A model generated the notes under the pieces. That model saw only the letters and a program-made list of their open reading frames with translations, made no database searches and was not told where the DNA came from. Below are positions 853 through 17,750 of a stretch of 18,387 nt of DNA, piece by piece. The DNA comes from an uncultured beta proteobacterium (GTDB lineage: Bacteria; Pseudomonadota; Gammaproteobacteria; Burkholderiales; Burkholderiaceae_C). Location of the stretch: the NCBI GenBank assembly GCA_903870955.1, contig CAIQEX010000079.1, positions 1 to 18,387 of the forward strand, given 5' to 3'. How positions within the stretch are numbered: the stretch's first letter is position 1; every line of letters starts with the position of its first letter. The translations under genes were made by a program, and so were the position numbers.

Positions 853-1502
853 GCTGCTTCAAAGCCTGCGGCCTTGTGGCTACCGTCACAGTAGGGTTTG
901 TTCTTGCTGTGACCGCAGCGGCACAGGTAGGTCTCGCCAACCTTGTTGCAGGTGCGACCGGTGCCGCTCACCACTTCGAGGTTACCCACCACGCGCAGGG
1001 GTCCGTTGGGCCGGGGTTGCACGTCCAGCGGTCCGTTGCGAACTGCCAGCGCTTCAAAGCTGGCGGTGGCGGGTTCGCCCGTGGCCACAAAACCGGCGGC
1101 CACATGGCTGCCGTCGCAGAACGGTTTGCTTTTGCTCTGACCGCAACGGCACAGGGTGGCGCGCGGGTTGGCTTGCGCCTGACCGTTGATCAGCAACTCC
1201 GCCTCTACCGCGAGTGGTCCGTTCTCACGCACGCGCACGGTGTTGACGATGGGCAGCCCGTTGGAGTCAGCCGTTGCGCCAGCATCCGAGTGGTTGCGCA
1301 CCACCGTGATGGCACCCGAGGGACAGTTCTGACCGATGCGGATGAGTTCTTCCACCGGTTGGGCGTCGGGATGAATCCATGCGCCCACGACATTGGGCAC
1401 AAACACATCGGGATGCGAGAGCACACAGGTGCGCGAGTGAATGCACCGGGCAGAATCGAAATGGATGGTGGCTTCTTTGCCGGTGACTACTTCTATGGCC
1501 AT
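849..1502 (-). CDS. iron-sulfur protein: divergent 4Fe-4S domain plus two CDGSH domains
   Basis: The 217-residue protein has three metal-binding modules. Residues about 1-68 resemble the divergent single-cluster ferredoxin family (Fer4_19), with Cys at 20, 26 and 60 and CPSGAI at the last one. Two CDGSH zinc-finger-type 2Fe-2S sites follow, with ligands Cys118, Cys120, Cys129, His133 and Cys194, Cys196, Cys205, His209; both show the CxC...PxCDGSH pattern. CDGSH proteins take part in redox sensing or iron-sulfur handling; the substrate is unknown. The frame stays open far upstream, but the start at 1502 is chosen because GAAGGAG sits about 8 nt before this ATG and domain homology begins there. 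No signal peptide or membrane segment is seen, so it is probably cytoplasmic. It overlaps the TMEM175-like gene by 4 nt and diverges from DAHP synthase. Confidence 0.88.
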   Translation of the reverse strand: MAIEVVTGKEATIHFDSARCIHSRTCVLSHPDVFVPNVVGAWIHPDAQPVEELIRIGQNCPSGAITVVRNHSDAGATADSNGLPIVNTVRVRENGPLAVEAELLINGQAQANPRATLCRCGQSKSKPFCDGSHVAAGFVATGEPATASFEALAVRNGPLDVQPRPNGPLRVVGNLEVVSGTGRTCNKVGETYLCRCGHSKNKPYCDGSHKAAGFEAA

Positions 1503-1709
1503 GGTGGTCTCCTTCAGGAAAATATGCGGACAGGAAGATGGGACTTGGAACCTATGCCAGTGACACTGCGCTGGTGTGCACTGCAGACACGCCCCGACCA
1601 TCAAAAAGTTGCAGGCCTGGCTGTCACCGTATGCAAGGGCATCGGGGTGCAATAATTCTATCCCCGCATTGTCCTGGCCGCTTGCGCACTCCAAACCCAC
1701 CTTTACGGC

Positions 1710-2819: not shown

Positions 2820-4013
2820 TTATTTCTTCTTGTTGTAGACGTCCACGCAGACCGCCGCCAACAGCACCAGCCCCTTGATCACCTGTTGGTAATCAATGCC
2901 GATGCCCATAATGGACATGCCGTTGTTCATCACGCCCATGATGAAGGCGCCGATGACGGCACCCAGCACCTTGCCGACGCCGCCCGATGCGGAGGCGCCA
3001 CCGATGAAACAGGCAGCAATCACATCCAGCTCAAAGCCGAGACCGGCCTTGGGTGTGGCGGTGTTCAGGCGCGCCGCAAAGATGAGGCCGGCGAGAGCCG
3101 ACAACATGCCCATGTTGATGAAGGTGTAGAAGGTCAGGCGTTCGGTCTTGATGCCCGAAAGGCGCGCCGCCTTCTCGTTGCCACCCAAGGCATAAATACG
3201 TCGGCCCACGGTGGTACGTGAGGTGACGAAGTCATACACCAGCATCAGCACCAGCATGACGATCAGCACATTGGGCAAGCCCTTGTACGAGGCCAGCATG
3301 TAACTGAAGGCGGCGATCATGCCGGCGAAGACCAGGTTCTTCACCATGAACAAAACCGCCGGCTCGCTTTCCATACCGTGCTTGACGCGCTCGGCGCGGC
3401 CGCGCACCTTGGTCACCAACAGCACCAGGGCCATCAGCAGCCCCGCCACCAGCGAGGTCACACGCAGCGTCTCGCCATGCAGCGGGTCGGGAATAAAACC
3501 GGTGCTGAGCAACTGAAAGTTTTCCGGGAAGGGGCCGACGGACGAGCCTTCCAGCACCGCCAGCGCCAGACCTTTGAACACCAGCATGCCCGCCAGCGTC
3601 ACGATGAAAGACGGTATTTTGTAAAACGCCACCCAGTAGCCCTGGGCCGCACCGATGACGCCACCCAGCACCAGACAGATGATGGTGGCCGGTACAAAGT
3701 GCATCCCTTTGTTGACCATCAGCACGGCCGCGCAGGCACCCACAAAACCACTCACCGAGCCCACCGACAAATCGATATGGCCGGACACAATCACCAGCAG
3801 CATGCCCAGCGCCATGACGATGATGTAGCTGTTTTGCAGGATCAGGTTGGTCAGATTCAGCGGCTGAAACAGGGTGCCGTTGGTCTCGACCTGGAAGAAG
3901 ACCATGATCACCACCAGGGACAGCAGCAGTCCGTATTCACGCAAATTGTTTTTCAAGAAGTTGCCGCCACTGACCACTTCGGTGGCGTTGGTTTCTGCAG
4001 TTTGGGTTGCCAT
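2820..4013 (-). CDS. gguB: sugar ABC transporter permease GguB (XylH-like)
   Basis: A 397-residue inner-membrane protein of the ribose/xylose-type ABC permease family (BPD_transp_2), with about ten hydrophobic segments. Family landmarks are the GHIDLSVGSVSGFVG stretch after the early helices, LGGNEKAARLSGI on a cytoplasmic loop that contacts the ATPase, and the Gly-rich GGASASGGVGKVLGAV segment near the end. It forms the translocation pore for sugars delivered by ChvE and is powered by GguA. The ATG follows the gguA stop by one base (TGA-A-ATG), with AGGAG about 9 nt upstream inside gguA, so coupling is likely. The name rests on the chvE-gguA-gguB order and overall similarity. Confidence 0.9.
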   Translation of the reverse strand: MATQTAETNATEVVSGGNFLKNNLREYGLLLSLVVIMVFFQVETNGTLFQPLNLTNLILQNSYIIVMALGMLLVIVSGHIDLSVGSVSGFVGACAAVLMVNKGMHFVPATIICLVLGGVIGAAQGYWVAFYKIPSFIVTLAGMLVFKGLALAVLEGSSVGPFPENFQLLSTGFIPDPLHGETLRVTSLVAGLLMALVLLVTKVRGRAERVKHGMESEPAVLFMVKNLVFAGMIAAFSYMLASYKGLPNVLIVMLVLMLVYDFVTSRTTVGRRIYALGGNEKAARLSGIKTERLTFYTFINMGMLSALAGLIFAARLNTATPKAGLGFELDVIAACFIGGASASGGVGKVLGAVIGAFIMGVMNNGMSIMGIGIDYQQVIKGLVLLAAVCVDVYNKKK

Positions 4014-4014
4014 T

Positions 4015-5622
4015 TCAGTTAGCTCCTGATGTCACGATGGATCGCATGATTTTTTCCTGGGTCGCCTCGGCGGCCGTAAATTCGGCGACAAATGCGCCTT
4101 CGTTGAGAACGCAGATGCGGTCGCACATACCCAGCAATTCGGGCATTTCGCTGGAGATCATCAGCACGCATTTTCCCTCGGCTGCGAGCTGCGCGATGAT
4201 GGTGTAAATCTCGTATTTGGCACCGACGTCGATACCGCGGGTCGGTTCATCCAGTATCAGCACCTCGGGGTCGGAAAAGAGCCATTTGCTCAAGACCACT
4301 TTTTGCTGGTTGCCGCCTGACAGATTGACGGTGCGGGCAAACACATCCGGGCTGCGGATGTTCAACTTGCGCCGGTAATCCTCGGCCACCTTGTACTCAC
4401 GCCCTTCGTCGATCACCGAATTCGTCGAGACTGCATTGAGGTTCGCCAGTGTGGTGTTCCAGGCAATGGTTTCCTCCAGCACCAGGCCGTAGCCTTTGCG
4501 GTCTTCGGTGACGTAGGCAATGCGGTTATTGATGGCCTTTTGCACCGTGCTGGTGTCGACCTTTTTACCGTGCAGGAAAACTTCGCCGCTGATGTCGCGG
4601 CCATACGTTTTGCCGAAGATGCTCATGGCCAACTCGGTGCGGCCCGCGCCCATCAGGCCGGCAATGCCGACGATCTCGCCGCGCTTCACATGCAGGTCGA
4701 CGCCCTTGATGACCACGCGCTCCGGGTGCACCTCGTGGTGCACTTTCCAGTTCTTGACTTCAAAAACTATATCGCCAGAATTAGCCCCCAGTCCAGGCTG
4801 TGCCTGGCCCCCCGAGGGGGTGCAGTCATCCTTGGGGCGGCCCGGCGAATGACTATAGGGCGTGCGCCGGGGGTAACGGTCGGCCATCTCACGGCCCACC
4901 ATGTGGCGGATCACCGTGTCTTCGCTGATCTTGCCCGCCGTGCAATCCAGCGAAGCGACGGTGGCGCCATCGCGCAGCACGGTGATGCTGTCCGCCACCT
5001 TGGAAATTTCGTTGAGCTTGTGCGAAATCAGGATGCAGGTAATGCCGTGGCGCTTCAGGTCGAGCAGCAACTCCAGCAGGGCATCGCTGTCGGTCTCGTT
5101 CAGACTCGCGGTGGGCTCATCCAGGATCAGCAGTTTGACTTCCTTGGACAAGGCCTTGGCGATTTCAATCAGCTGCTGCTTGCCCACACCCAGGTTGGTG
5201 ATGAGCGCATTGGGTGATTCTTTCAGGCCTACTTTTTTCAGCAGCGCCTGGGTTTTTACAAACGAGGTGGTCCAGTTGATGATGCCAGAGGACGCCTGTT
5301 CGTTGCCCAGAAAAATGTTCTCGGCAATCGACAACAAAGGCACCAGTGCCAGCTCCTGGTGAATGATGATGATGCCCTTGTGCTCGCTGTCGGCGATGCC
5401 TTTGAAGTGGCAATCCTGACCCAGAAATTTGATCTGGCCTTCGAAGTCTCCATCCGGATAGACGCCCGACAAAACCTTCATCAGGGTTGATTTACCGGCC
5501 CCGTTCTCACCCACGATGGCATGGATCTCGCCCGGCATCACGCTTAGATTGACGTTGCTTAAAGCGCGTACCCCGTGGAAGGATTTCTTGATTCCACGCA
5601 TTTCAAGAATGGGTTCTGCCAT
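4015..5622 (-). CDS. gguA: sugar ABC transporter ATP-binding protein GguA, with an unusual in-frame insertion
   Basis: This 535-residue tandem ATPase energises sugar import. Domain 1 has Walker [10 protein letters not shown] (38-46), an LGVGKQQ signature (near 144-150) and Walker [12 protein letters not shown]. Domain 2 has the degenerate GLMGAGRTE loop usual in this family (322-330), the NLSGGNQQK signature (433-441) and Walker [13 protein letters not shown]. Typical GguA/XylG proteins are about 510 residues. The excess of about 23 residues lies in the linker (about 256-282), between RYPRRTP and the start of domain 2, and is encoded by a GC-rich double-hairpin sequence (4780-4850) listed separately. 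The frame is intact and all ATPase motifs are present, so the protein is probably functional. The start ATG 5622 has AGGCAAGG upstream. A strong terminator-like hairpin lies between it and chvE. Confidence 0.92.
4780..4850 (-). repeat. REP-like palindromic element inserted in frame in gguA
   Basis: Two hairpins sit directly side by side. One is CCAGGC/GCCTGG with a 3-nt loop (4793-4807); the other is a run of C's and a run of G's around a 2-3 nt loop (4808-4820). A GC-rich flank GGGCCGCCCCAAGG, read on the minus strand, follows. The stretch encodes about 23 low-complexity residues (Gly, Pro, Ser, Gln, Asp) absent from the usual GguA linker. I recall similar GGGCCGCCCCAAGG...CCCCCTCGGGGGG sequences as intergenic repeats in Comamonadaceae genomes, but cannot search here. 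No second copy is in this window. Boundaries are approximate. Confidence 0.6.
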
Positions 5623-5706: not shown

Positions 5707-6783
5707 TTACTTGAGCTGTTCTTCCTTGATGTAGCCGCTGCCGATCAAGACTTGCTTGTAGTTGGAAAGATCCACCGGCACGGGCTTGAGCAGGTAGGAG
5801 GGCACCACCTTGACCTTGTTGTTATAGGTCTTGGTGTCGTTGATTTCGGGCTGCTTGCCGGAGAGGACTGCGTCCACCAGATTGGCAGTGACCTTGGCCA
5901 GTTCACGTGTGTCCTTGAAGATGGTGGAGTACTGTTCCTTGCGGATGATGGACTTCACCGAGGGCACTTCCGCATCCTGTCCGCTGACGAACGGATAAGG
6001 CTGCGAAGCCGAGCCGTAGCCCACGCCCTTCAGCGAGGACAGGATACCGATGCTCAAACCATCGTAGGGGGACAGCACAGCGTCGACGCGCTTGTTGCCG
6101 TAGTAGGCGCTCAGCAGGTTGTCCATGCGGGCCTGGGCCACAGCACCATCCCAACGCAGGGTGGAGACCTTGTTCATGCCGGTCTGCTTGCTCTGCACCA
6201 CCAGCTTGCCCTTGTCGATGTAGGGCTGCAGCACGGACATGGCGCCGTCGTAGAAGAAGAAGGCATTGTTGTCGTCAGCCGAACCGCCAAACAGTTCGAT
6301 GTTGAATGGGCCCTTGCCTTCTTTCAGACCGAGTGCTTTTTCCAGCGACTGGGCTTGCAGCACGCCGACCTGGAAATTGTCGAAGGTGGTGTAGTAGTCA
6401 ACGTTCTTGCTGCCGACGATCAGGCGGTCATAGGCCACAACCTTGATGCCCTTGTCAGCGGCTTTTTGCAGCGCGTTGGAAAGCGTCGTGCCGTCGATGG
6501 AGGCAATCACCAGAACCTTCACGCCCTTGGTGATCATGTTTTCGATTTGGGCCAACTGGTTGGGGATGTCATCGTCTGCGTACTGCAGGTCGGCCTTGTA
6601 GCCCTTGGCGGCCAGAGCGGCAACCATGCTGTTGCCGTCGCTCACCCAGCGGGTGGAAGTCTTGGTTGGCATGGCCACGCCAACGGTGCCCTTGTCTTGC
6701 GCTTGTGCAACGGGTGCAATGAGCGAAAAACCGAGTGCCAGACCGGCGGCCAGTGCCTTGAGTGTGTATCTGCGAGCGTTCAC
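5707..6783 (-). CDS. chvE: periplasmic multiple-sugar-binding protein ChvE
   Basis: A 358-residue substrate-binding protein of the ribose/xylose-binding class (periplasmic-binding fold type I). The N-terminus [10 protein letters not shown] plus a hydrophobic stretch ends in AQA-QDKG, a clear signal peptide with predicted cleavage after residue 28. The mature part starts with [18 protein letters not shown] and contains the family stretches [19 protein letters not shown] and [11 protein letters not shown]. Agrobacterium ChvE binds aldoses and also uronic acids such as galacturonate, which fits the neighbouring uronate-type enzymes. The start codon is GTG, supported by CAGGAGA about 7 nt upstream and by the signal peptide beginning exactly there. 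It is the first gene of the chvE-gguA-gguB unit and has its own promoter/operator at 6837-6896. Confidence 0.93.
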
Positions 6784-6836
6784 TGTATGTCTCCTGAGTG
6801 TTTAGTTACTCTTTGGCCGGTGGTCAAAGAAGCTGC

Positions 6837-6896
6837 ATCATAAGAACGCTATCGATAATCTTCCAATTGAGATTAGGGCAGTTTCTATAGCAAAAC
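6837..6896 (-). promoter_or_regulatory. chvE promoter with putative LysR-type operator (copy 2)
   Basis: On the minus strand there is a -35-like TTGGAA (6866-6861), an 18-nt spacer, and a -10-like TATGAT (6842-6837). Upstream lies TTTGCTATAGAAA, a near-palindrome with T-N11-A form, at about -55 to -65 from the expected start, where LysR-type activators usually bind. The 60 bp match 11920-11979 without gaps at 40 positions, including GATAAT, AATTG and ATAGCAAAAC read on the plus strand. The predicted mRNA leader is about 47 nt. Confidence 0.75.
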
Positions 6897-6914
6897 GTGG
6901 ATTGGTAATTACCC

Positions 6915-8081
6915 TTAGTTTGCAGTGATTCCGCTGAGGGGTTCGGTGGCTGCGCTGGCCAGCGCCGCGTGCATGCGCGACAAGGCCAAGGTACTGCCGT
7001 GCTGCTCAGCCAAAGCCAGCAGCGGCGCAAAGCGGCGCTGCTTTTTCTGCGCGTGGTTCTGGAAGATGTCGGCGATATGGTGCTCCAGAAACGGGTTTTC
7101 AAAGCGCTCACGCACCGTGGCCAGATAGGCCTGGGCCTGTGGCAATTGCCCCAGCAAGTCAAATACCGGCAGCACCTCCTCGTCCCAGAAGGATTCCAGT
7201 TCACCACGCTGCTGGCTATCCGACATGGCTTCGCGCACGGTCTGACGGGGCGGGCGCTTTAAGGCGTGCCAGCGTTCGGCTAAATAGGTGTGGCCCGCAT
7301 TGAGCAAAAAGAGTTTCAGCCGCTCGTAGCGCGCCAGGTCATCCGTGAGCACGATGCACGGATGCTGGCACGGCATAACCAGCCCGACCTGTCTTTGTAC
7401 CGCCCACAAAGCGTACGGTTCGGCCACCGCACCGACCGGCTCCAACGCCTGGGAGACGATGCGGTCGACCAGCGAATTGGCCCACACGCAGTGCTGCTGC
7501 AACCACACGCAAAAAGTCTGGCTTAAGGCCCAGCGCTGGGCCAGGCGGATCAGCAACTGGCGCAGCACGTCGCCGTTGTCTTGCACCAGCTCGCAGGGCA
7601 GCAGGGTCAGCGGCGCGTCCGGGCGCTGTTGCCAGCGGCCAGCCAGAAGCACCAGCAACTTGGCCGGAAAACTGGCCGGTACCGCGCCGTCTGAGGCCAG
7701 CATGGCCGGGCCATCAGCCAGATCCAGTGCGTAACCGGTATCTCCGGTATTGGAAACAAGCACCTGCGCGTGCAATACCGCCTGACGCACCTGCGGCCAC
7801 TGGGTGTCGGCCTGCAGCGCGCCGCGAATCGCGTTCGCGTAATAGGTTTGATCGATGCGGGCGCCATCCTGGCAGCCACGCACCCGCACCGGGTAGGGCG
7901 CGCCGGTGGCCAGCGCCGCCACCCGCGCGGCGCCCTCTGCACGGGTGGTTGTCTGCACCACGGTGATGCCGCCCAGCGCATGGCTGGCACCGGCTTCGCC
8001 AGCCAGCGCTTGCGAGACAAACAAATCCACATGCGCCTGCAAGAAGCGGCTGGTACCAAACTGCACGATGGGCTGGAACAT
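6915..8081 (-). CDS. mannitol-dehydrogenase-family oxidoreductase, likely tagaturonate reductase (UxaB-like)
   Basis: This 388-residue protein belongs to the long-chain polyol dehydrogenase family (mannitol dehydrogenase, UxaB, UxaD). Evidence includes the N-terminal nucleotide-binding opening QFGTSRFLQAHVDLF (7-21), VSNTGDTGY, the PCELVQDNG segment (162-170), NSLVDRIV (202-209), and the catalytic K-x4-N-x2-H motif with Lys256, Asn261 and His264. UxaB reduces D-tagaturonate to D-altronate with NADH. The altronate dehydratase gene next door supports that role, but mannonate, fructuronate or a polyol remain possible. It is about 90-100 residues shorter than E. coli UxaB (about 480), yet has all core motifs. 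Its ATG lies 2 nt after the stop of the Zn-dehydrogenase, with GAGGT upstream, so it is in the same operon. The chvE operator begins about 20 nt past its stop. Confidence 0.75.
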   Translation of the reverse strand: MFQPIVQFGTSRFLQAHVDLFVSQALAGEAGASHALGGITVVQTTTRAEGAARVAALATGAPYPVRVRGCQDGARIDQTYYANAIRGALQADTQWPQVRQAVLHAQVLVSNTGDTGYALDLADGPAMLASDGAVPASFPAKLLVLLAGRWQQRPDAPLTLLPCELVQDNGDVLRQLLIRLAQRWALSQTFCVWLQQHCVWANSLVDRIVSQALEPVGAVAEPYALWAVQRQVGLVMPCQHPCIVLTDDLARYERLKLFLLNAGHTYLAERWHALKRPPRQTVREAMSDSQQRGELESFWDEEVLPVFDLLGQLPQAQAYLATVRERFENPFLEHHIADIFQNHAQKKQRRFAPLLALAEQHGSTLALSRMHAALASAATEPLSGITAN

Positions 8082-8083
8082 GC

Positions 8084-9094
8084 TCAGACCTCGATCAGGG
8101 CCTTGACGACACCGCGCGCCGGGTCCAACAGCTGGGCAAAGTCAGTAGGCACATCGGCCAGTGGCATGCGGTGCGTGTTGAGCGCTGCGCAGGGCACCTG
8201 CCCGGCACGAATGGCCTGCAGCACGGTCTCAAAGTCCTCGGCCGTGGCGTTGCGGCTGCCCAGCAGGGTGGTCTCGCGCTTGTGGAATTCGGGGTCCGAG
8301 AAACTGATGCTGCCCTGCACCACCGAGATCAGCACGTAGCTGCCGCCGTGGCAGACAAACTGCAGGCCGCGTTCCATGGCCTTTGCATTGCCGGTGGCGT
8401 CCATCACCACATCAAAAAATTCGCCGTCGGTTGCATCCCGCAACCGGGCTTCGTCATCAGCGCCCAGCGTGACCGCAGCGGCCACACCCAGCTCGCGCCG
8501 GCAGAATTCCAGCCGGTCCTGACGCGCGTCCAGCGCCGTAACCTGGGCACCACGCAGCCCGGCAAAAATCATGGCGGCCATGCCAATAGGCCCGGCACCC
8601 ACCACCAGCACGCGCTGGCCTGGACGCACCTGGGCGCGGCGCACCGCATGTGCGCCAATGGCCAGAAATTCGACCATGGCGGCCTGGTCCAGCGTCACGC
8701 CTTCGGCCTTGTGCACAAACTGTTCGGGTAGGGCCAGGTATTCGCAAAAGGCGCCATCGCGGTGTACGCCCAGCACCTGAATAGCGACGCAGCAATTGGT
8801 CTTGCCCTGTCGGCAGGCAATGCATTGGCCGCAGGACAAATAGGGCATCACATACACCGTGTCGCCAACGGCCAGACGCCCGCCCTGCGGCGCCTCGGCC
8901 ACCTCGCCGGAAAACTCGTGGCCCATGACGCGCGGGTATTGTAGGAACGGCTGGGTGCCGCCAAAGATGTGCAGATCGGTACCGCAAACGCCCACGCGGC
9001 GCACCCGCACCAGCACTTCGCCAGGTGCGCAGACAGGGCGTGCGCGTTGTTCGGCACGCAGATTTCCAGGGGTTTCACAAACGATGGTCAGCAT
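8084..9094 (-). CDS. zinc-dependent alcohol dehydrogenase, L-galactonate 5-dehydrogenase (LgoD/RspB)-like
   Basis: The 336-residue protein is a medium-chain Zn dehydrogenase. Catalytic zinc ligands are Cys37 (GVCGTDLH), His59-Glu60 (GHEFSGEV) and probably Glu142. The structural zinc lobe has Cys88, Cys91, Cys94 and Cys102 (C-x2-C-x2-C-x7-C). The NAD-binding loop is VVGAGPIG (164-171). The overall pattern resembles LgoD/RspB/YjjN, which in E. coli oxidises L-galactonate at C5 to D-tagaturonate. With UxaB- and UxaA-type neighbours, that reaction would feed directly into the pathway. A sorbitol, galactitol or threonine-dehydrogenase-like role cannot be excluded. AGGAAA lies just before the start. 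The gap to uxaA upstream is 43 nt, and to the next gene 2 nt. Confidence 0.75.
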   Translation of the reverse strand: MLTIVCETPGNLRAEQRARPVCAPGEVLVRVRRVGVCGTDLHIFGGTQPFLQYPRVMGHEFSGEVAEAPQGGRLAVGDTVYVMPYLSCGQCIACRQGKTNCCVAIQVLGVHRDGAFCEYLALPEQFVHKAEGVTLDQAAMVEFLAIGAHAVRRAQVRPGQRVLVVGAGPIGMAAMIFAGLRGAQVTALDARQDRLEFCRRELGVAAAVTLGADDEARLRDATDGEFFDVVMDATGNAKAMERGLQFVCHGGSYVLISVVQGSISFSDPEFHKRETTLLGSRNATAEDFETVLQAIRAGQVPCAALNTHRMPLADVPTDFAQLLDPARGVVKALIEV

Positions 9095-9137: not shown

Positions 9138-10682
9138 TCAGGTCACCGCACCGAGTTGCCAGGGCACAAATTCGTTTTGGCCGTAGCCATGGATTTCGCT
9201 CTTGCTGAGTTCGCCCGAGGCCATGCGCAGCAGGGCCTGGAAGATTTGCTCGCCCATCTGGTCTACCGTGCATTCGCCATCCACAATGCCACCGCAGTTG
9301 ATGTCGATGTCGGCCGCCTGGCGTTGCCACAGCAGGCTGTTGGTGGCCAGCTTGAGCGAGGGCACCGGGGCGCAACCATAGGCCGAGCCACGTCCGGTGG
9401 TGAAGCAGATCAGGTTGGCGCCACCGGCCACCTGTCCGGTGGCACTCACCGGGTCGTAGCCGGGGGTGTCCATAAACACCAGGCCGTGTCGGGTGACGGG
9501 CTGCGCGTATTCCAGCACCTCGACCAGATTCGTGGTGCCGCCTTTGGCCACCGCCCCCAGCGACTTTTCCAGAATCGTGGTCAGGCCACCGGCCTTGTTG
9601 CCGGCCGAGGGGTTGTTGTTCATGTCGGCACCCATGCGCTGGCAATAGGCCTCCCACCAGGCGATGCGCGCCAACAGTTGGGCACCCACTTCGGCGCTTT
9701 GCGCACGGCGTACCAGCAGGTGCTCTGCACCATAGATTTCCGGTGTTTCTGACAGGATGGCGCTGCCGCCCTGGCGCACCAGGCGGTCCACCGCAGCACC
9801 CAGCGCCGGGTTGGCACTGACGCCGGAGTAGCTGTCCGAGCCACCACATTGCAGGCCGACCACGAGGTGGCTGGCGGGCACCGGCACGCGCTGCACGGCG
9901 TTGGCCGCGGGCAACATGCCGCGCACCACCTCCAGACCACGCTGCACGGCCAGCGCGGTGCCACCGCTGTCCTGAATCGTGTAGGCCTGCAGCACCGGCC
10001 CGGCCTGCAAGCCTTCGGCCTGAATCCAGGCCGGGATCTGGTTGGTCTCGCAACCCAGACCGATCACCAGCACGGCCGCAAAATTGGCATGCCGTGCATA
10101 GCCCGCCAGCGTGCGGCGCAGCAGTTGCAGGGCTTCGCCCTCGGAGTCCACTGCGCAACCGGCGCCGTGGGTCAAGGCCACGACACCATCTACCTGTGGA
10201 AAGTCCTGCAGTGCCTCGGGAAAGATGTCCCGGCGAAAGCGGTCAGCAATGGCGCGGGCCACGGTGGCCGAGCAGTTCACCGAGGTCAGGATGCCGATGT
10301 AGTTGCGCGTGGCCACGCGCCCGTCGGGCCGCACAATGCCCATGAAGGTGGCGGCCTCGGCCGCGAACTGTGTCGGCCGCGCATCCAGCGTGGCTACCTG
10401 CGCCGCATCGCGTTCAAACTCGCCCATGCCCAGGTTGTGCACATGCACATGCTGGCCGCGCCGGATCGCCTGTGAGGCAAATCCAATGATCTGGCCGTAG
10501 CGCCGCACCGGTGCACCGGCTTCCAAGTCGCGCACCGCCACCTTGTGGCCGGGCGGAATCAGGCCGCTGATGGTGATACCTTCTTCCGGCAGCACCGTAC
10601 CCGAGAGCAATTGCTGGCGGGTGATGACGACATCGTCATCGGCATGCAGGCGGATCGAGACCGGGGCGGTGGTGGTTGTCAT
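9138..10682 (-). CDS. uxaA: UxaA-family altronate dehydratase
   Basis: A 514-residue single-chain enzyme with an N-terminal SAF domain (about 10-88) and the large UxaA/GarD catalytic domain (about 115 to the end). Characteristic segments are GRVATRNYIGILTSVNCSA, LTHGAGCAVDSEGE, GLGCETNQIPAW, LQCGGSDSYSGVSANPALG (invariant Cys likely binding the metal) and FTTGRGSAYG. Altronate dehydratase converts D-altronate to 2-keto-3-deoxy-D-gluconate using Fe2+ or Mn2+. The related galactarate dehydratase shares the fold, but the adjacent oxidoreductases favour altronate. Its ATG follows the TGA of the FAH-family gene by one base, with AAAGG upstream inside that gene, so the two are surely cotranscribed. 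Confidence 0.85.
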   Translation of the reverse strand: MTTTTAPVSIRLHADDDVVITRQQLLSGTVLPEEGITISGLIPPGHKVAVRDLEAGAPVRRYGQIIGFASQAIRRGQHVHVHNLGMGEFERDAAQVATLDARPTQFAAEAATFMGIVRPDGRVATRNYIGILTSVNCSATVARAIADRFRRDIFPEALQDFPQVDGVVALTHGAGCAVDSEGEALQLLRRTLAGYARHANFAAVLVIGLGCETNQIPAWIQAEGLQAGPVLQAYTIQDSGGTALAVQRGLEVVRGMLPAANAVQRVPVPASHLVVGLQCGGSDSYSGVSANPALGAAVDRLVRQGGSAILSETPEIYGAEHLLVRRAQSAEVGAQLLARIAWWEAYCQRMGADMNNNPSAGNKAGGLTTILEKSLGAVAKGGTTNLVEVLEYAQPVTRHGLVFMDTPGYDPVSATGQVAGGANLICFTTGRGSAYGCAPVPSLKLATNSLLWQRQAADIDINCGGIVDGECTVDQMGEQIFQALLRMASGELSKSEIHGYGQNEFVPWQLGAVT

Positions 10683-10683
10683 G

Positions 10684-11871
10684 TCACAAACCTTTTGCGT
10701 TCAACAGACCACGCGCCGCCAGGTTATTGAAGAAGGCGCGCAGGCCAAACTGCCAGGGCGGGGCATCGCCGCAATGGTGCACGCGGTTGCACAACACGCC
10801 CAGGTGAGGACTCTGAATGCGCACGGTGTCGCCCAGGTGGTGGGTAAAGCCGCTACCGGCCTGATCGCGGTCTTTGGTGGGTGCAAACAGCGTGCCCATG
10901 AACAGCATGAAGCCGTCCGGGTACTGGTGCGCGCCCATGACTTGCTCTACGAGCTCCAGCGGATCGCGGCTGATCTGGTCCATGGAATTCACGCCCTTCA
11001 TGACAAAGCCGTCTTCGCCGGTCACCAGCAATTGCAGCACTTCATTGCGCACATGGTCGAGGGTGAAAGTCGCATCAAACAGGCGGATGAACGGGCCAAT
11101 GGCGCAGGAGGCGTTGTTGTCCTTGGCCTTGCCGAGCAACAGGGCACTACGACCCTCGATGTCGCGCAGGTTGACGTCATTGCCCAAGGCTACACCCTGG
11201 ATCACGCCCCGGCTGTTGACCGCCAGCACCACTTCCGGTTCGGGGTTGTTCCAGTGCGAATCGGCGCGTATGCCGACGGCACTGCCGGTCCCCACCGAGG
11301 ACAGCACCGGTGCCTTGGTAAACACCTCGGCGTCTGGCCCGATTCCCACCTCCAGATATTGCGACCAGATGCCTTGCGCCTGCAGCGCGGCTTTGAGTTG
11401 CATGGCCTGGGGCGAGCCGGGTTTGATGGCCGACAGATCGGCACCGATTTGCGCCAGCACCTGGCTGCGAATGGCCTGGGCGCGGCTGGCGTCGCCACCG
11501 GCCTTTTCTTCGATCACGCGCTCGATCATGCTGGTGGCAAAGGTGACGCCGGCCGCCTTGATGACCTGCAAATCGCAGGGCGACAGGAAGAAGGGTTTGC
11601 TGAGGTCGCGCGTGGCCTCGTCGCTATTGGCCAGCAGATCCTCCAGGGAACCGGCACGCGTTCCCGCATAGCCCTGAACCAGGGCCGCAGGGTTTTCAGT
11701 CTCCAGCAGGGTGCTCATGCTGGCCACATGGGCCGACAGGTCGTAAACCCCATCGGCGCGCAGCACGGCCACCGAGGGGCCTGCCACACCGGCGGTATTC
11801 CAGATGCGGGTGACCAGGGTGCCGGCATAACCGTCGGCAGGTAAACAGTCTTGATTGGGCATGGGGTTCAT
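10684..11871 (-). CDS. fumarylacetoacetate hydrolase (FAH)-family sugar-acid catabolic enzyme
   Basis: The 395-residue protein has the FAH C-terminal fold, with the metal-binding style stretches HWNNPEPEVVLAV (paired Glu ligands), ALGNDVNLRDIEGRSALLLG and AKDNNASCAIGPFI. The subgroup looks like the 2-keto-3-deoxy-pentonate dehydratases (XylX/KdxD-like) or the AraD1/GguC type often found with gguAB, which dehydrate or cleave 2-keto-3-deoxy sugar acids. The exact substrate is not readable. The frame allows an ATG at 11913, but that codon sits at the predicted transcription start of the promoter at 11920-11979. ATG 11871 gives a leader of about 40 nt, similar to chvE, so it is preferred; ATG 11862 is also possible. 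No clear ribosome site is visible. First gene of the catabolic operon, divergent from lysR. Confidence 0.8.
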   Translation of the reverse strand: MNPMPNQDCLPADGYAGTLVTRIWNTAGVAGPSVAVLRADGVYDLSAHVASMSTLLETENPAALVQGYAGTRAGSLEDLLANSDEATRDLSKPFFLSPCDLQVIKAAGVTFATSMIERVIEEKAGGDASRAQAIRSQVLAQIGADLSAIKPGSPQAMQLKAALQAQGIWSQYLEVGIGPDAEVFTKAPVLSSVGTGSAVGIRADSHWNNPEPEVVLAVNSRGVIQGVALGNDVNLRDIEGRSALLLGKAKDNNASCAIGPFIRLFDATFTLDHVRNEVLQLLVTGEDGFVMKGVNSMDQISRDPLELVEQVMGAHQYPDGFMLFMGTLFAPTKDRDQAGSGFTHHLGDTVRIQSPHLGVLCNRVHHCGDAPPWQFGLRAFFNNLAARGLLNAKGL

Positions 11872-11919: not shown

Positions 11920-11979
11920 ATGATACGAAGCAGATTGATAATGTCCTAATTGCTAATTGCCCAACTCCCATAGCAAAAC
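11920..11979 (-). promoter_or_regulatory. catabolic operon promoter with putative LysR-type operator (copy 1)
   Basis: On the minus strand there is a -35-like TTAGGA (11949-11944), an 18-nt spacer and a -10-like TATCAT (11925-11920). Upstream lies GTTTTGCTAT (11979-11970), identical to the block in the chvE promoter at the same spacing. The region also lies 37-96 nt before the divergent lysR start, so the regulator could repress its own gene from the same site. The site sequence is seen; binding by the neighbouring LysR protein is inferred. Confidence 0.75.
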
Positions 11980-12015
11980 AAGTATGTCTAGCCAGCCCCG
12001 TCCTTCCCGCAATTC

Positions 12016-12987
12016 ATGACAAATTACAACCACTGGTTTATCCGCGCCCGGCTCAAGACCCGGCAACTGCTGTTGCTGGTGGCACTCGCCGAAGAGGGCA
12101 ATATCCACCGAGCCGCCCAGGTGCTGAGCATGAGCCAGCCGGCAGCCAGCAAATTGCTCAAAGACCTGGAAGACGTGCTGGAGGTTTCGCTGTTCGAGCG
12201 CTTGCCGCGCGGCATGCGCCCGACCTGGTATGGCGAGACCATGATTCGCCATGCCCGCGTGGCATTGGCGTCCTTGAATCAGGCGCACGATGAATTGCAG
12301 GCCGCCAAGAGCGGCCAGTTTGGCCAGGTCAGCATCGGCGCCATCACCTCGCCGGGGCTGATGCTGCTTCCCGAGGCGGTGCAACGGGTCAAGGCGGATC
12401 ACCCGGATTTACGCGTCTCGCTGCAAATCGAGACCAGCGATGTGCTGATCGAAAAGCTCAGCCAGAACAAACTGGACATTCTGGTGGCGCGGCTGTTTGC
12501 CCAACATGACAAAAGCGATTTGCGCTACGAGGTATTAACCGAAGAGCCGATCTGCGTCGTGGCGCGAACCGGCCACCCGATGCTGAAAGTCAAAGACCTG
12601 TCGTTGAACGACATGGCCGAAGCCGGCTGGATTGTGCCGCCCGCGGGCAGCGTGCTGCGGCATCGGTTTGAGTTGATGTTTCAGGAGATCGGGTTACGCG
12701 CGCCGGTCAACCTGATCGAGACGGGGGCCCTGCTTTTCACCAGCAAGATGCTGCAAATGAGTGACATGCTCAGCGTGCTAGCCACCGATGTGGCGCGCTA
12801 CTACGCAGAGCACGGACTGGTGTCTATTTTGCCGATTGACCTGCCTTGCCAGATGGAGGCCTTTGGCATCATTACCCGGCGCGACCGCCTGTTGTCGCCA
12901 GCCGCTGAAGTGATGCTGCGGGCGATCCGCAGCACGGCGCTGAGCGTGTACGGGCTGACTCCGGTGGAAGTGCCAACGGACAATTGA
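12016..12987 (+). CDS. LysR-family transcriptional regulator, GbpR-like
   Basis: A 323-residue LysR regulator. The winged helix-turn-helix (about 13-72) contains EEGNIHRAAQVLSMSQPAASKLL, here split as EEGNIHRAA and SQPAASKLL, and LFERLPRGMRPT. The effector-binding domain occupies about 95-305. The opening FIRARLKTRQLLLLVAL strongly recalls GbpR, the LysR protein that controls chvE-type sugar-binding protein genes in Agrobacterium and Azospirillum in response to sugars. It diverges from the catabolic operon, the standard LysR arrangement, and the shared operator blocks at 11920-11979 and 6837-6896 are its likely targets. The start at 12016 has no good ribosome site but matches where homology begins. 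The inducer is unknown: a sugar or sugar acid. Confidence 0.88.
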   Translation: MTNYNHWFIRARLKTRQLLLLVALAEEGNIHRAAQVLSMSQPAASKLLKDLEDVLEVSLFERLPRGMRPTWYGETMIRHARVALASLNQAHDELQAAKSGQFGQVSIGAITSPGLMLLPEAVQRVKADHPDLRVSLQIETSDVLIEKLSQNKLDILVARLFAQHDKSDLRYEVLTEEPICVVARTGHPMLKVKDLSLNDMAEAGWIVPPAGSVLRHRFELMFQEIGLRAPVNLIETGALLFTSKMLQMSDMLSVLATDVARYYAEHGLVSILPIDLPCQMEAFGIITRRDRLLSPAAEVMLRAIRSTALSVYGLTPVEVPTDN

Positions 12988-13015: not shown

Positions 13016-15823
13016 CTAAGCCGCAGTGGCTGCCCGGCGCTTCATAAGCTGGCGCAACAGAACCCGGTACAGGACCTTTGGCTCGACCGGTTTGGTAACG
13101 AAATCATTCATGCCGGCCTCCAGGCAACGCTGGCGATCTTCCGAAAATGCATTCGCCGTCAAGGCCACAATGGGGACTCCCGCTGCCGCGCCGGTGCTGC
13201 GAATGACGCGTGTCGCCTCCAGGCCATCCATTTTTGGCATCTGCATGTCCATCAGAATCAGATCGTAAGAAAACTGCTGGGCCATATCCACAGCCGCCTG
13301 CCCGTCTTCCGCCAAGGACACTGAAAGTCCCACGTCCTGTAGCAGGATGGTGCCAATTTCCCGGTTGAACTCATCATCTTCGACCAACAAAACCCGCCGT
13401 CCAGCGAAACCGGACTTCAACAGTTTCTCGGCTTCTGCGGGTCCAACGGGGTGATCCTCGAGGTCTGACTTTTGACACTTTTTGAGTCTTGCCGTGAACC
13501 AGAAAGTACTCCCCTTTCCCACCTCACTGACGGCTCCGACCGCACCACCCATCGCCTCTGCCAGGCGTTTGGTGATGACTAAACCCAAACCCGTGCCCCC
13601 AAATTTGCGTGTGGTTCCGGCGTCCGCCTGGACAAAAGGTGAAAAAAGCCGGCCCAGTTTCTCGGGCGAAATGCCCAGGCCCGTGTCCTGCACTTCAAAC
13701 CGCAACAAGGCTGAATCCTCCGACTCTTCCTGAACCAGTCCCTTCAGCCATACCGTTCCACCGTCGGTAAATTTCACCGCGTTGCTTGCATAGTTCAACA
13801 AAGCTTGCTGCAGGCGCGTGGCATCTCCGGCCAAACGCTGCTGGGTTGGCGCCACGTCCACCACCAGTGTCAGACCTTTTTCCGACACCGTCTCCTGCAG
13901 CATGTTGGCGACGTTTTCAAACAGCGTGGCGACCTCAACCGGGCTTTCCTCAAAGACCAGCTTATTGGCTTCAATTTTGGACAGGTCGAGAATGTCATTG
14001 ATGATGGCACTCAGATGTCTGGTTGCAGATTGGAGCTTCGTCATCCAGTTCGACTGCGCCCGGTTCAGCGGTTCCCTGCCGATGAGTTGGGCCATGCCCG
14101 AAATGGCGCTCAATGGCGTACGAATCTCGTGGCTCATGTTGGCCAGAAAATCCGACTTGGCCGCATTCGCCTGGGTCGCAACCTGGGCTTGCATGGCGAG
14201 TTGCTCGTTGAGCCGCATCAGGCTATTTCCCGCGCTTTTTAACTCCGTAACATCCTCGATCAAGACAAAAAAACCTTGGACGATCCCGTTCGACACATCC
14301 GGTATGTACTTGGCGGCCATGCAACCGAGTTCGCCATTTGGTCGACGCCATTCGCGCTGAAATAACTGGGCTTCACCTGCCAGCACCGCCTGAATTCGGG
14401 AGGAGTTCAACTGGAACAGGTCGGCGCCCAGCACATCCTTGATATGCATGCCCAAAATGGTTTCCACATTCACGTCAAACCATGCCTCGTAGGCCTTGTT
14501 GGCAAAGCGGCAGCGCAGGTCGCGATCCCAATAACCAATCATGCTGGGAACACCATCTGCGACCGCACGCAAGAATTTCTGCTGGGCAATCAACTCCTGG
14601 TTGCTGGCTTCCAGTTTGCGGGTCCGGTCCATGACCAGGTCTTCCAGTTGGCTCTGGTGTTTGGCGATGAGCAGGTCGCTGGCCTTGCGCTGGCTGATAT
14701 CCTGCATAAAACCCGTGACCCGAATCGCCCGGCCTGACGGGTTGTAGTCGATTTGCCCGACGTTGTGGATCCAGCGAAGCTGCCCATCCTGGGGTCTGAT
14801 GATCCGGTATTCCAGATCAAAGCGGCTATCGGCGCGGCGCATTGCGGCACGGAAATGGGCACGAATGGTGGCACGGTCCTCGGTGATCAGCAGGCTCTGC
14901 CATGCGGCGACCGTTCTGGGGTAGTTGGTGTCGATGCCAAGCACTTTTTCGAGCGAGCTTGAAGTCTGCCAGGTTCCGGTTTCCAGGTCGGTAACAAACG
15001 TCCCGGCGTGGGCGATTCTCTGCGCTTCGTTCATGTCTCTCTGGCTGATCTGCAGTGCAATGCGGGTGTTCTCCTGCTCTGTCACATCGACCATGGAGCA
15101 AACCAGAAATAGCGGTTCTCCGGCGGCATTGAAAATCGGATTTTTGAAGGTGTGCCCGATCCGGTTTTGCTGCATCGCGTTATTCCAATACACCTCCTGA
15201 AAATCGACGGGCACCTTTGCTGCAAATATGGCTTTGTCATCCGCCAGAAATTTTTGCATCTGACTGGCTGGGAACATCGCTGAGCCGTCCTTGTCCTTCA
15301 GGTCAGCGAAAGAAATTCCCCACTGGCTTTCGCACGCGCGGTTCATCAACACAAAACGGCTGTGTGCGTCTTTAACAAACAAGGGGACCGGTGAGGCCTC
15401 CAGAATGCTTTGCAGTTGCTGTCGGGTATGCAGCGCTTCCAGCTCAATCTGCCTTCTCGCAGAAATATTTTGCAGTTCCCACAGCACGCAGTCACCTTGG
15501 TCTGTCATCACCGTTTGGCCGTTAATGACATGCGGCGTAGCGACACCCTTGAGGTTTAAAAGAACTTCATGGTCCGAGACGCAGGAATCTTCCTGGATCG
15601 CCCGCATGCAGGCGTCTCTATCTTTCGGGTCAACCCAAATTCCAAGCTCCAACGCAGTGCGACCGATGGCCTCAGAGCGGCCAATGCCGGTGGCGCTGAT
15701 CCAGCGTTCGTTGACATCCAGAATGACACCGCTTGCCTTGTCAGTGAATGACAGGCTGTTTTTGCTGGCATTGAAGATCAGCGCATAGTTGAGCTTTGGG
15801 GTAAGTCTGGGTTCTTGTGCCAT
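13016..15823 (-). CDS. hybrid sensor histidine kinase with four PAS domains and a receiver domain
   Basis: The 935-residue protein has no signal peptide or clear membrane segment, so it probably senses a cytoplasmic signal. In order: PAS1 (about 18-125), PAS2 (135-255), PAS3 with PAC (275-380), PAS4 (415-530), a short coiled coil, the HisKA dimerisation domain with phospho-acceptor His565 (SHEIRTPL), an HATPase with N681 (NYASNAVKF), DTGLGI and FGGTGLGL, then a receiver domain with Asp816/Asp817, phospho-acceptor Asp859 (LMDMQMP) and Lys911. There is no HPt domain, so phosphate must pass to a separate HPt protein or the receiver may act as an intramolecular brake. ATG 15823 is preferred; a TTG at 15835 would add four residues. 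It lies 56 nt downstream of the chemoreceptor gene with no terminator between, so the two are probably cotranscribed. The ligand is unknown. Confidence 0.92.
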   Translation of the reverse strand: MAQEPRLTPKLNYALIFNASKNSLSFTDKASGVILDVNERWISATGIGRSEAIGRTALELGIWVDPKDRDACMRAIQEDSCVSDHEVLLNLKGVATPHVINGQTVMTDQGDCVLWELQNISARRQIELEALHTRQQLQSILEASPVPLFVKDAHSRFVLMNRACESQWGISFADLKDKDGSAMFPASQMQKFLADDKAIFAAKVPVDFQEVYWNNAMQQNRIGHTFKNPIFNAAGEPLFLVCSMVDVTEQENTRIALQISQRDMNEAQRIAHAGTFVTDLETGTWQTSSSLEKVLGIDTNYPRTVAAWQSLLITEDRATIRAHFRAAMRRADSRFDLEYRIIRPQDGQLRWIHNVGQIDYNPSGRAIRVTGFMQDISQRKASDLLIAKHQSQLEDLVMDRTRKLEASNQELIAQQKFLRAVADGVPSMIGYWDRDLRCRFANKAYEAWFDVNVETILGMHIKDVLGADLFQLNSSRIQAVLAGEAQLFQREWRRPNGELGCMAAKYIPDVSNGIVQGFFVLIEDVTELKSAGNSLMRLNEQLAMQAQVATQANAAKSDFLANMSHEIRTPLSAISGMAQLIGREPLNRAQSNWMTKLQSATRHLSAIINDILDLSKIEANKLVFEESPVEVATLFENVANMLQETVSEKGLTLVVDVAPTQQRLAGDATRLQQALLNYASNAVKFTDGGTVWLKGLVQEESEDSALLRFEVQDTGLGISPEKLGRLFSPFVQADAGTTRKFGGTGLGLVITKRLAEAMGGAVGAVSEVGKGSTFWFTARLKKCQKSDLEDHPVGPAEAEKLLKSGFAGRRVLLVEDDEFNREIGTILLQDVGLSVSLAEDGQAAVDMAQQFSYDLILMDMQMPKMDGLEATRVIRSTGAAAGVPIVALTANAFSEDRQRCLEAGMNDFVTKPVEPKVLYRVLLRQLMKRRAATAA

Positions 15824-15879
15824 GGATGATCCCAATTCCAGGACAAAATCAGGTTGTTTCGTTCCAGGGATTTTTGGTG

Positions 15880-17574
15880 TTACCGACGGGCTTGGTACTG
15901 AAGGCCCTGACGCGCAACGCTCCGGGTGGGCAGATAAGCAACGGCAGATTCCGATGGGTTGGCTGCCTCGTCTTTAAAGCCACGGCGCATTTCAACCGCG
16001 TCCATTTGTGACACCGTAAGCTCACCCGACTTGAGCCGGAACAGCCGCATTGAATTGCCAACTTCCTTGACTTGGCCACTGAGTGACTGCGCGGTCGCTG
16101 CGAGCTCTTCCACCATGGCCGCATTTTGTTGGGTCATGGTATCCATTTGGGTCACGGCTTCGTTGACCTGTGAGACACCCAGGGTTTGTTCCTTTGATGT
16201 GGAACTGATTTCTTCCAGCACCACGGCAACCTTGTCTACGGCACTCAGGGCCACGTTCATGCGTTCCAGCGCAATGGCGGTCTGGTTGTTACCGGCATCA
16301 ATGCGTTCGTTGGACGCCGTAATCAAATTCTTGATTTCTTTGGCTGCCGCCGTGGTGCGCTGTGCCAGAGCCCGAACTTCGGTGGCCACCACCGCAAATC
16401 CCCGCCCCTGATCGCCGGCTCGGGCGGCCTCCACCGCTGCATTCAGTGCGAGGATATTGGTCTGAAATGCCACCCCTTCAATGAGCTGAATAATCTCGGT
16501 GATTTTTTTGGAGGATTGCGAAATTTCCTGCATCGATTTCGCCACCAGTGTCACGGCTTCATTGCTGCGGTGGGTGACGTCCTTGGTGTCGTCCGCAAGG
16601 AGGTAGCCGCGTTGTGCTGATTCCGCACTTTGCTGAATGTTTCCATGGATTTGCTCCATGGATGCCGCTGTTTCTTCCAGGTTACTGGCCTGTGATTCGG
16701 TTCTTTCGGAGAGGTCCTGATTGCCGTCTGCAATCTCCTGCACGGACATGCCTAGCTGGTCCATTTCCTCGCGAACATCGCTCACCACAGTGCGCAAATT
16801 AACCGACATCTGATTGAGTGCCTGTTGCAGTTGGCCGACCTGCCCATGGCTGCCGGTTTTGACTGCGTGCGATAAATCCCCCGCGGCCAAATGGTTGGCA
16901 TCGGACACCAGCGATGCCAACGGTTTCACGGTCAAAGACCAGGTCCAGAAGACTGCCAAAGCTGCCGCCAGAATCATGCCCAGTGCAACCAGTGGCAGGG
17001 GTAGACCCGCTGCAACCATCGCCAGAACCAGTCCCCCCAGCAGTATCTGTACCCATGCCAGTCTGGCAATCACACCGGGTTGTAGCAGCCGTCCGAATTG
17101 CCCTGCCAAGCCGACGTGTACCACCTGGCCCTGCTTCAAACCCACGGTGCGGCGTCCTGCACTTTGTTCCTGGCGCATTTGCGCATACAACTTCTCGGCG
17201 GCGGCCACGGCTTGTGCGGATGGGACGGTTCGAACAGACAGGTAACCGGTTATGGTCTCGCCATCCAGCATGGGTGTGGCATTGGCCAGAACCCAGTAGT
17301 AGTCGCCATTTTTTCGCCGATTTTTGACCAATCCCGTCCAGGGCAGTTTGGATTGAATGGTGGCCCACATGTCGCGAAAGGCTTCTTCCGGCATTTCAGG
17401 ATGGCGCACCAAATTGTGGGGCTGCCCCAGCAGTTCACCTGAGGAATAGCCGCTGACCTCGACAAAGGCGCGATTGCAGTAGGTTATGCGGCCCTTGAGG
17501 TCGGTCACCGATACCAGCGTCTGCTCTCTACCGAATTGGTATTCGGTTCGGGTAACCGGAAGATTCGTACGCAT
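15880..17574 (-). CDS. PAS-containing methyl-accepting chemotaxis protein (Aer-like)
   Basis: A 564-residue chemoreceptor. The N-terminal PAS domain (about 10-118) has the Aer-type pattern NLPVTRTEYQF, TDLKGRITYCN, GQPHNLVRHPEMP and LVKNRRKNGDYYWVLANATP, suggesting redox or oxygen sensing through a bound cofactor (FAD in E. coli Aer). Two hydrophobic stretches (about 173-190 and 193-212) form a membrane hairpin, followed by HAMP (about 212-262) and a long signalling coiled coil with the conserved tip around EGVAFQTNILALNAAVEAAR (366-385). There is no periplasmic domain and no C-terminal CheR-binding pentapeptide. The frame extends to 17721, but ATG 17574 is chosen: GAGGGGAA lies about 7 nt upstream and Aer homology begins there. 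The upstream gene is divergent; the hybrid kinase is downstream. Confidence 0.92.
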   Translation of the reverse strand: MRTNLPVTRTEYQFGREQTLVSVTDLKGRITYCNRAFVEVSGYSSGELLGQPHNLVRHPEMPEEAFRDMWATIQSKLPWTGLVKNRRKNGDYYWVLANATPMLDGETITGYLSVRTVPSAQAVAAAEKLYAQMRQEQSAGRRTVGLKQGQVVHVGLAGQFGRLLQPGVIARLAWVQILLGGLVLAMVAAGLPLPLVALGMILAAALAVFWTWSLTVKPLASLVSDANHLAAGDLSHAVKTGSHGQVGQLQQALNQMSVNLRTVVSDVREEMDQLGMSVQEIADGNQDLSERTESQASNLEETAASMEQIHGNIQQSAESAQRGYLLADDTKDVTHRSNEAVTLVAKSMQEISQSSKKITEIIQLIEGVAFQTNILALNAAVEAARAGDQGRGFAVVATEVRALAQRTTAAAKEIKNLITASNERIDAGNNQTAIALERMNVALSAVDKVAVVLEEISSTSKEQTLGVSQVNEAVTQMDTMTQQNAAMVEELAATAQSLSGQVKEVGNSMRLFRLKSGELTVSQMDAVEMRRGFKDEAANPSESAVAYLPTRSVARQGLQYQARR

Positions 17575-17654
17575 CTGAATTCCCCTCAGTGTATGTAGTT
17601 GTTGCACTGTTGCTGATGGGGGCGCTGAAGCGCGGCTAACAGCCAAAGTACGGT

Positions 17655-17701
17655 TTTGATACGAATCAAATAATTCGCACAAATCAATTTTAACGATTAA
17701 A
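17655..17701. promoter_or_regulatory. AT-rich divergent control region with two short palindromes
   Basis: The gap between the chemoreceptor and the divergent HTH-receiver gene (17575-17750) is AT-rich on the side nearer the regulator. It contains two perfect inverted repeats: TTTGATACGAATCAAA (17655-17670, 6-4-6) and TTTAACGATTAAA (17689-17701, 5-3-5). They could be operators for the adjacent regulator. TACAAT at 17704-17709 resembles a -10 box for the plus-strand gene, but I see no matching -35. No convincing sigma-28 site for the chemoreceptor was found. Confidence 0.35.
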
Positions 17702-17750
17702 GCTACAATTACACAACTCAATTTGAATTATTTAGTACACTTGCCAAATC

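Follow-up and report, generated by a model that had tools for sequence, protein, structure and literature searches.

Two similar 60-base blocks stand at the heads of two neighbouring operons in an 18,387-nucleotide stretch of DNA from an uncultured beta proteobacterium, referred to below as the window. Each of them is probably a regulated promoter with a putative LysR operator, and by these blocks the catabolic FAH-UxaA-ADH-UxaB operon and the transporter operon chvE-gguAB would be driven together. The following genes and blocks were assigned:

2820-4013 (-), gguB, permease; above NCBI's GguB cut-off
4015-5622 (-), gguA, ATP-binding protein; above NCBI's GguA cut-off
5707-6783 (-), chvE, sugar-binding protein; above NCBI's ChvE cut-off
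6837-6896 (-), candidate promoter/operator block of the chvE-gguAB operon; 28.0 bits with a matrix from other loci, rank 1 in the window
6915-8081 (-), tagaturonate reductase (UxaB)-like dehydrogenase of the mannitol dehydrogenase family; below NCBI's cut-off
8084-9094 (-), zinc-dependent alcohol dehydrogenase (ADH); profile matches
9138-10682 (-), UxaA/GarD-superfamily dehydratase; below NCBI's galactarate dehydratase cut-off
10684-11871 (-), FAH-superfamily enzyme, 2-keto-3-deoxy sugar acid dehydratase-like, start at 11871 or 11862; solved relatives 9kkt and 2q18
11920-11979 (-), candidate promoter/operator block of the FAH-UxaA-ADH-UxaB operon, in the intergenic region with the divergent lysR; 21.8 bits with the same matrix, rank 2 in the window
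12016-12987 (+), LysR-type regulator, expected binder of both blocks; PF00126 and PF03466 above cut-off

Both the HTH and the substrate-binding domain of LysR proteins are thus present in the regulator. For the FAH-superfamily gene no Pfam or NCBIfam match was obtained at the limits used; its ATG at 11862 lines up with the start in the relatives L006, L008 and L101.

Likeness and number of the blocks

That the window holds two similar 60-base blocks could be confirmed. A sequence-only reading had claimed 40 identical positions of 60 in a gapless alignment of 11920-11979 with 6837-6896, and a recount gave the same number, with GATAAT, AATTG and ATAGCAAAAC in the same register in both blocks. 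The siting was borne out as well, one block lying between lysR and the FAH gene and the other before chvE. The distances of 49 and 54 bp to the start codons are slightly different on recounting: 53 nt separate the block from the chvE GTG at 6783, and 48 nt from the FAH ATG at 11871, or 57 nt from the ATG at 11862.

For each block, the best match elsewhere on both strands of the window is the other block; the next best reaches 29/60 for the 11920 block and 30/60 for the 6837 block. The likeness drops away past both block ends. Both regions are AT-rich and intergenic and carry ordinary -35 and -10 boxes, by which two promoters might come to resemble each other by chance. However, in 1000 dinucleotide shuffles of both intergenic regions the best ungapped 60-mer had a mean of 26.5 and a maximum of 32 identities, 40 being reached in none, and none of 200 column-permuted matrices reached either block. 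A chance likeness therefore has a negligible probability.

The own genome (4.39 Mb) was scanned with the near-clade pattern, allowing up to three mismatches. Two matches were obtained, both in the window, and none with the reversed control. A second pattern, in which GTTTTG is not required, yielded 18 sites in 11 near genomes and none in the control. Two sites each were found in seven of these genomes (the window's genome, G006, G014, G032, G103, G136 and G138) and one each in the other four (G018, G128, G114 and G106). With clade-specific patterns one site, beside lysR, was detected in 7/7 and 9/10 other genomes, all chosen among genomes carrying the lysR; the control was again zero. As the sites used to build the patterns belong to these same genomes or clades, their recovery is true by construction, and what is informative is that no further sites appeared and that the controls were zero. 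Pattern scans gave no third site in the own genome, of which the assembly is 87% complete and in which diverged sites would escape. The regulon of two sites proposed by the sequence-only reading fits these counts, with the LysR protein as the putative binder of both sites.

Conservation in related loci

A matrix of 60 ungapped columns was seeded from one locus and refined on training loci alone. Training used the 250 bp upstream of lysR in 73 loci that do not belong to the near clade (Variovorax, Rhizobacter, Polaromonas, Hydrogenophaga and others). The locus pool consisted of the best 80 of 174, from which the seven near-clade loci L155-L161 were deliberately excluded; L162, L200 and L230, titled Rhodoferax, were retained among the 73. 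Within these best 80 of 174, records for the LysR proteins nearest to the window's carry the titles uncultured beta proteobacterium, Comamonadaceae, Burkholderiales and Rhodoferax lacus.

On both strands of the window the 73-locus matrix ranked 6837-6896 (-) first with 28.0 bits and 11920-11979 (-) second with 21.8, and the third place scored -16.7; the score of neither block was reached by any column-permuted matrix (n=200). For a second matrix the eight chvE-adjacent loci were removed, which left 65 loci, none with chvE or FAH beside lysR. The same two blocks were still on top (14.4 and 8.5; next -21.0). Within the full training set (best 80 of 174 minus the near clade), 72/73 loci scored above 0 bits and 69/73 above 20; L187 was the one of the 73 training loci for which the matrix scan found no site. 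Hence, a feature expected of LysR regulators is present, namely a site that is kept upstream of the regulator gene and common to the divergent operon.

Conservation in related loci had been set beforehand as a test of the blocks. The block is kept before chvE, and a same-register site occurs upstream of lysR even beside other sugar genes. The near-clade chvE is preceded by the site in all eight genomes examined, and FAH in all five genomes with FAH as first gene beside lysR. In L034 and L035, two chvE-adjacent relatives, the matches to both window blocks stay below 33/60. The proposal that uxaA homologues in general would be a place to find the site did not hold. No site was present in three 16-kb loci that have a UxaA homologue (67-73% identical) but lack such a lysR, namely L239 and L240 from the same genus and L241 from the same order; their best scores were -36.0, -33.8 and -26.8. 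Thus, there is no fixed link between the site and uxaA. L238 starts within the FAH gene and was left out of this judgement.

The blocks could also be promoters under another regulator, with lysR merely adjacent. A further dyad in the chvE leader (6810-6830) and the perfect inverted repeat of some FAH sites, both described below, would suit this explanation, as would one Phyllobacterium in which an orthologous chvE with an adjacent GntR-family gene has no such site. However, the site accompanies lysR also where chvE or FAH is no neighbour (64/65 such loci above 0), and each genome has one or two copies of it, located at the lysR cluster. We therefore regard another regulator as unlikely and the LysR-type protein as the probable one.

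The order of the genes around the sites varies among the near genomes. G018 has lysR-site-chvE; the cultured Rhodoferax lacus IMCC26218 (locus L158), G032 and G136 have lysR-site-FAH-site-chvE; G014 has lysR-site-FAH-UxaA-site-chvE, and the window lysR-site-FAH-UxaA-ADH-UxaB-site-chvE. An ABC transporter follows the lysR site in G006 and G138 (lysR-site-ABC transporter ... FAH-UxaA ... ADH-UxaB ... site-chvE) and in G128 (lysR-site-ABC ... FAH-UxaA-ADH-UxaB), the latter with no chvE within the stretch examined. L155-L161 coincide with the contigs G006, G138, G014, G103, G018, G032 and G136, and none was counted twice in the site comparisons. The gene cluster appears to have been rearranged around one regulator, and each operon head beside lysR or chvE retains its own site.

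Such an arrangement might be a passive relic: the catabolic operon would have entered between chvE and lysR, an intergenic piece would have been duplicated, and no joint regulation would exist now. L029, a relative in which lysR adjoins chvE without the catabolic genes, is consistent with this history, and the stop codon of the UxaB-like gene abuts an upstream element (see below) that in other loci is found near the lysR start. In contrast, five genomes with FAH beside lysR retain both copies. The FAH sites share 46-53/60 positions among themselves vs 33-40/60 with the chvE site of the own genome; thus, the two kinds split before these species did, and the copies are old. The -35, TATC and -10 columns are almost invariant. 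A relic is for these reasons very improbable, and joint regulation of both operons by the LysR protein is preferred.

Anatomy of the sites and an element upstream of chvE

Six elements were assigned in the two units:

6837-6842 (-), -10 box TATGAT, chvE; promoter scan
6861-6866 (-), -35 box TTGGAA, chvE; promoter scan
6881-6896 (-), upstream dyad GTTT-N8-AAAC, putative site recognised by LysR; the transcription start is expected about 58 bp further on
6901-6914 (-), GGGT-N4-ACCAAT element (GGGTAATTACCAAT) of the chvE unit, directly adjoining the UxaB-like stop codon; the FAH site is without it
11920-11925 (-), -10 box TATCAT, FAH operon; promoter scan
11944-11949 (-), -35 box TTAGGA, FAH operon, placed by register with chvE; the scan favours AGGACA at 16 nt

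The consensus from the 73-locus matrix is CGATTGATATCCATTTTGTCCAAAAAACGATTGGATAGATATCAATTCTGTTCCTAGACT. Columns 31-36 represent the -35 box (TTGGAA for chvE, TTAGGA for FAH) and columns 55-60 the -10 box (TATGAT and TATCAT), with 18 nt between them; the -10 columns read TAGACT in distant loci. Common to 16 near-clade sites are AT in columns 9-10, ATT.G in 30-34, TATC in 40-43 and TAT.AT in 55-60. The same 18-nt spacing had been claimed for both promoters. This was found for chvE, where the scan itself detects TTGGAA-18-TATGAT at 6866-6837 (-), but for FAH the scan favours AGGACA-16-TATCAT, and TTAGGA-18-TATCAT is an alternative that preserves the common register.

Sites of LysR-type regulators are known for a T-N11-A dyad near -65. 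The dyad described here lies near -58, with its centre at column 8.5 and a form of 12-16 bp, and strict T-N11-A spacing misfits some sites. It is ATCGATATCGAT-like in distant loci, and in the window's FAH copy the right arm is mostly gone. The search motif proposed earlier has to be modified: its N8-12 is slightly missed by the actual chvE spacing, GTTTTGCTAT-N18-AATT-N7-TATC, and GTTTTGCTAT is only the near-clade form.

Directly upstream of the chvE block, behind a 4-nt gap, GGGTAATTACCAAT (6914-6901) had been overlooked. GGGT-N4-ACCAAT with variable centre was detected at 8/8 near-clade chvE sites and at 3/3 sites before another ABC transporter, and at 0/5 FAH sites. Among the 72 scoring training loci, 67 have GGGT at the same 18-nt offset. 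For the more distant chvE-adjacent loci the element is kept in L031-L033 and deviates in L034 and L035; L036, where the chvE start lies beyond the stretch, was excluded from this comparison and L037 from the alignment. The element is found near the lysR start codon in many relatives. Since it is intact in the window though it abuts the UxaB-like stop codon, a role for chvE and not for lysR alone is suggested.

The 60-bp block as the duplicated unit therefore describes the core, which both copies have, but the chvE unit comprises about 78 bp and reaches 18 bp further upstream. Judged by their letters, the two copies are not equivalent, the FAH unit being a trimmed form of the chvE unit. As a tentative and rather doubtful extension, one LysR protein might serve two promoter versions, a full 78-bp version (GGGT-N4-ACCAAT, dyad and core) on transporter operons and a trimmed one on FAH, with the full version as a general GbpR-type operator of alpha- and betaproteobacteria. 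If this were true, uptake and catabolism would respond to different amounts of ligand, or lysR autoregulation would be the chief role of the trimmed site.

Further repeats were observed near the blocks. The FAH/lysR intergenic region of L006, L008 and L101 contains a perfect inverted repeat (L008: CTGCCATACC-N6-GGTATGGCAG) that overlaps the block start; in the window it is degenerate (CATA-N10-TATG, 11969-11986). The chvE leader of the window carries at 6810-6830 (-) the inverted repeat TCTTTGACC-ACC-GGCCAAAGA, just past the expected chvE start. GCC-N3..8-GGC occurs in the first 35 nt of 16/21 distinct chvE leaders, which are related rows and do not include the window's imperfect repeat among the 16, and in 2000 shuffles the mean was 1.3 and the maximum 5. 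This repeat is possibly the operator of a second regulator. In a genome scan for the leader dyad the pattern was too loose to be informative: the control counts were similar and the chvE leaders themselves were not returned. A known RNA element was rejected: no Rfam family reaches threshold in the window, and RNAalifold gave no consensus fold for the 21 distinct chvE leaders (identical ones counted once).

Proposed control and comparison with known systems

LysR-type activators bind as tetramers to a site near -60 and, with ligand, also to the -35 region, whereupon polymerase is recruited. The anatomy of the sites fits this mechanism. Each block would combine -35 and -10 boxes of sigma-70 type, 18 nt apart, with a site for the LysR-type protein (12016-12987) about 58 bp ahead of the expected start. 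This protein would occupy the upstream site and, together with a ligand derived from sugar, contact the -35 region at the conserved ATT.G-N5-TATC. Recruitment of RNA polymerase by the ligand-bound protein, i.e. activation and not repression, would turn on both operons jointly, that for transport from 6837 and that for catabolism from 11920, and the 11920 block may also act in lysR autoregulation. With GGGT-N4-ACCAAT at the chvE promoter and none at the FAH promoter, the two operons probably differ in strength or threshold of response.

Several points stand against this reading. The FAH copy is without the upstream element (0/5) and, in the window, most of the right dyad arm and may be bound differently, and the lysR-tied sequence could in part be lysR's own promoter. 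The training locus L187, without a site, and the relatives L034 and L035, with their low block matches and deviating upstream element, also count against it. By comparison among loci, the predicted LysR regulon of two sites is well supported. Control of this kind is common in bacteria; what is added here is the exact candidate operator, the extra upstream element and two unequal versions. A precise and testable operator/promoter is proposed for the putative regulator of the multiple-sugar transporter ChvE-GguAB.

In common with LysR-type activators of divergent operons, which have a site near -60 and a second contact near -35, the system has a divergent target, a dyad about 58 bp before the expected start and conserved columns around -35. 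In contrast to these, the dyad spans 12-16 bp, T-N11-A is not universal and the GGGT element lies still further upstream.

According to the available part of a review, ChvE is the sugar sensor used by Agrobacterium on plants, and chvE is regulated by GbpR when sugars are available (PMC4086400). The window is similar in having a LysR-type gene at the chvE-gguAB locus. Unlike in Agrobacterium, a catabolic operon that carries a further copy of the site stands between the regulator and chvE. In Azospirillum argentinense the LysR protein encoded next to chvE shows 42% identity with that of the window over 292 residues. The term GbpR-like, used in the sequence-only reading, is fair on account of this identity, and the protein may be an orthologue of GbpR. 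The tree fork that sets the window's LysR with the Azospirillum and Rhizobium proteins against paralogues of the own genome has a support of 94/96, which is below the tool's mark, with long branches. A GbpR operator was not found in the literature searched, the original chvE-GbpR work being outside its coverage; nor was a consensus site for GbpR-type regulators, most subscription titles lying outside the part covered.

The matrix was also applied to 13 loci including the window, with 200 permuted matrices each. For Rhizobium leguminosarum the best place was the lysR-chvE intergenic region (4.0; 0/200), for Azospirillum thermophilum a place before chvE (-10.7; 0/200). Caballeronia gave the LysR/IlvD intergenic region (-1.0; 0/200) and, in the same Caballeronia, a place before chvE (-11.7; 1/200). 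Places upstream of lysR were detected in G067 (28.5; 0/200) and G017 (10.8; 1/200), and two places in G083, one of them before chvE (2.2 and -8.0; 0/200 each). In A. argentinense the second place was the lysR/SMP-30 intergenic region (-10.6; 1/200) and the third lay just before chvE (-15.4). No outstanding place was given by the matrix for Phyllobacterium (81/200), Allorhizobium (120/200) and the distant LysR loci L038 (8/200) and L039 (23/200). A GbpR-wide operator may be possible.

GguR is a regulator for hexuronates. In Halomonas it is a GntR-family protein, according to the accessible portion of the source, and the GguR regulon was hence rejected as a candidate, since GguR is not the window's LysR (PMC5507952).

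For Herbaspirillum huttiense, C785_RS13685 and C785_RS13680 are described in the portion seen of PMC6336799 as D-arabinonate dehydratase and 2-keto-3-deoxypentonate dehydratase. The window resembles this non-phosphorylative pentose pathway, as that portion presents it, by a UxaA/GarD-superfamily dehydratase and a COG3970 FAH-superfamily enzyme, likened by family and not by sequence (PMC6336799). A difference from that pathway is that a zinc alcohol dehydrogenase and a UxaB-like reductase are present as well; they would suit a hexonate route, and their NCBIfam scores are under the curated cut-offs. The terms LysR, promoter and chvE have 0 occurrences in the main text of PMC6336799.

Some minor observations concern the surroundings of the genes. 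In L030 (G032), two short LysR C-terminal matches (66% and 84% identical) lie downstream of the intact lysR at 16730-16998 (+) and are probably remains of a second copy. At 849-1703 (-) the window has a 68-bp direct repeat (860-927/1088-1155; 81% identical, 228 bp apart), which is accounted for by the encoded protein, in which two CDGSH iron-sulphur domains and a divergent 4Fe-4S domain are present. Beyond lysR, two further proteins are encoded on the (-) strand, a large one resembling hybrid histidine kinases (13016-15835) and a PAS-containing one resembling chemotaxis receptors (15880-17721).
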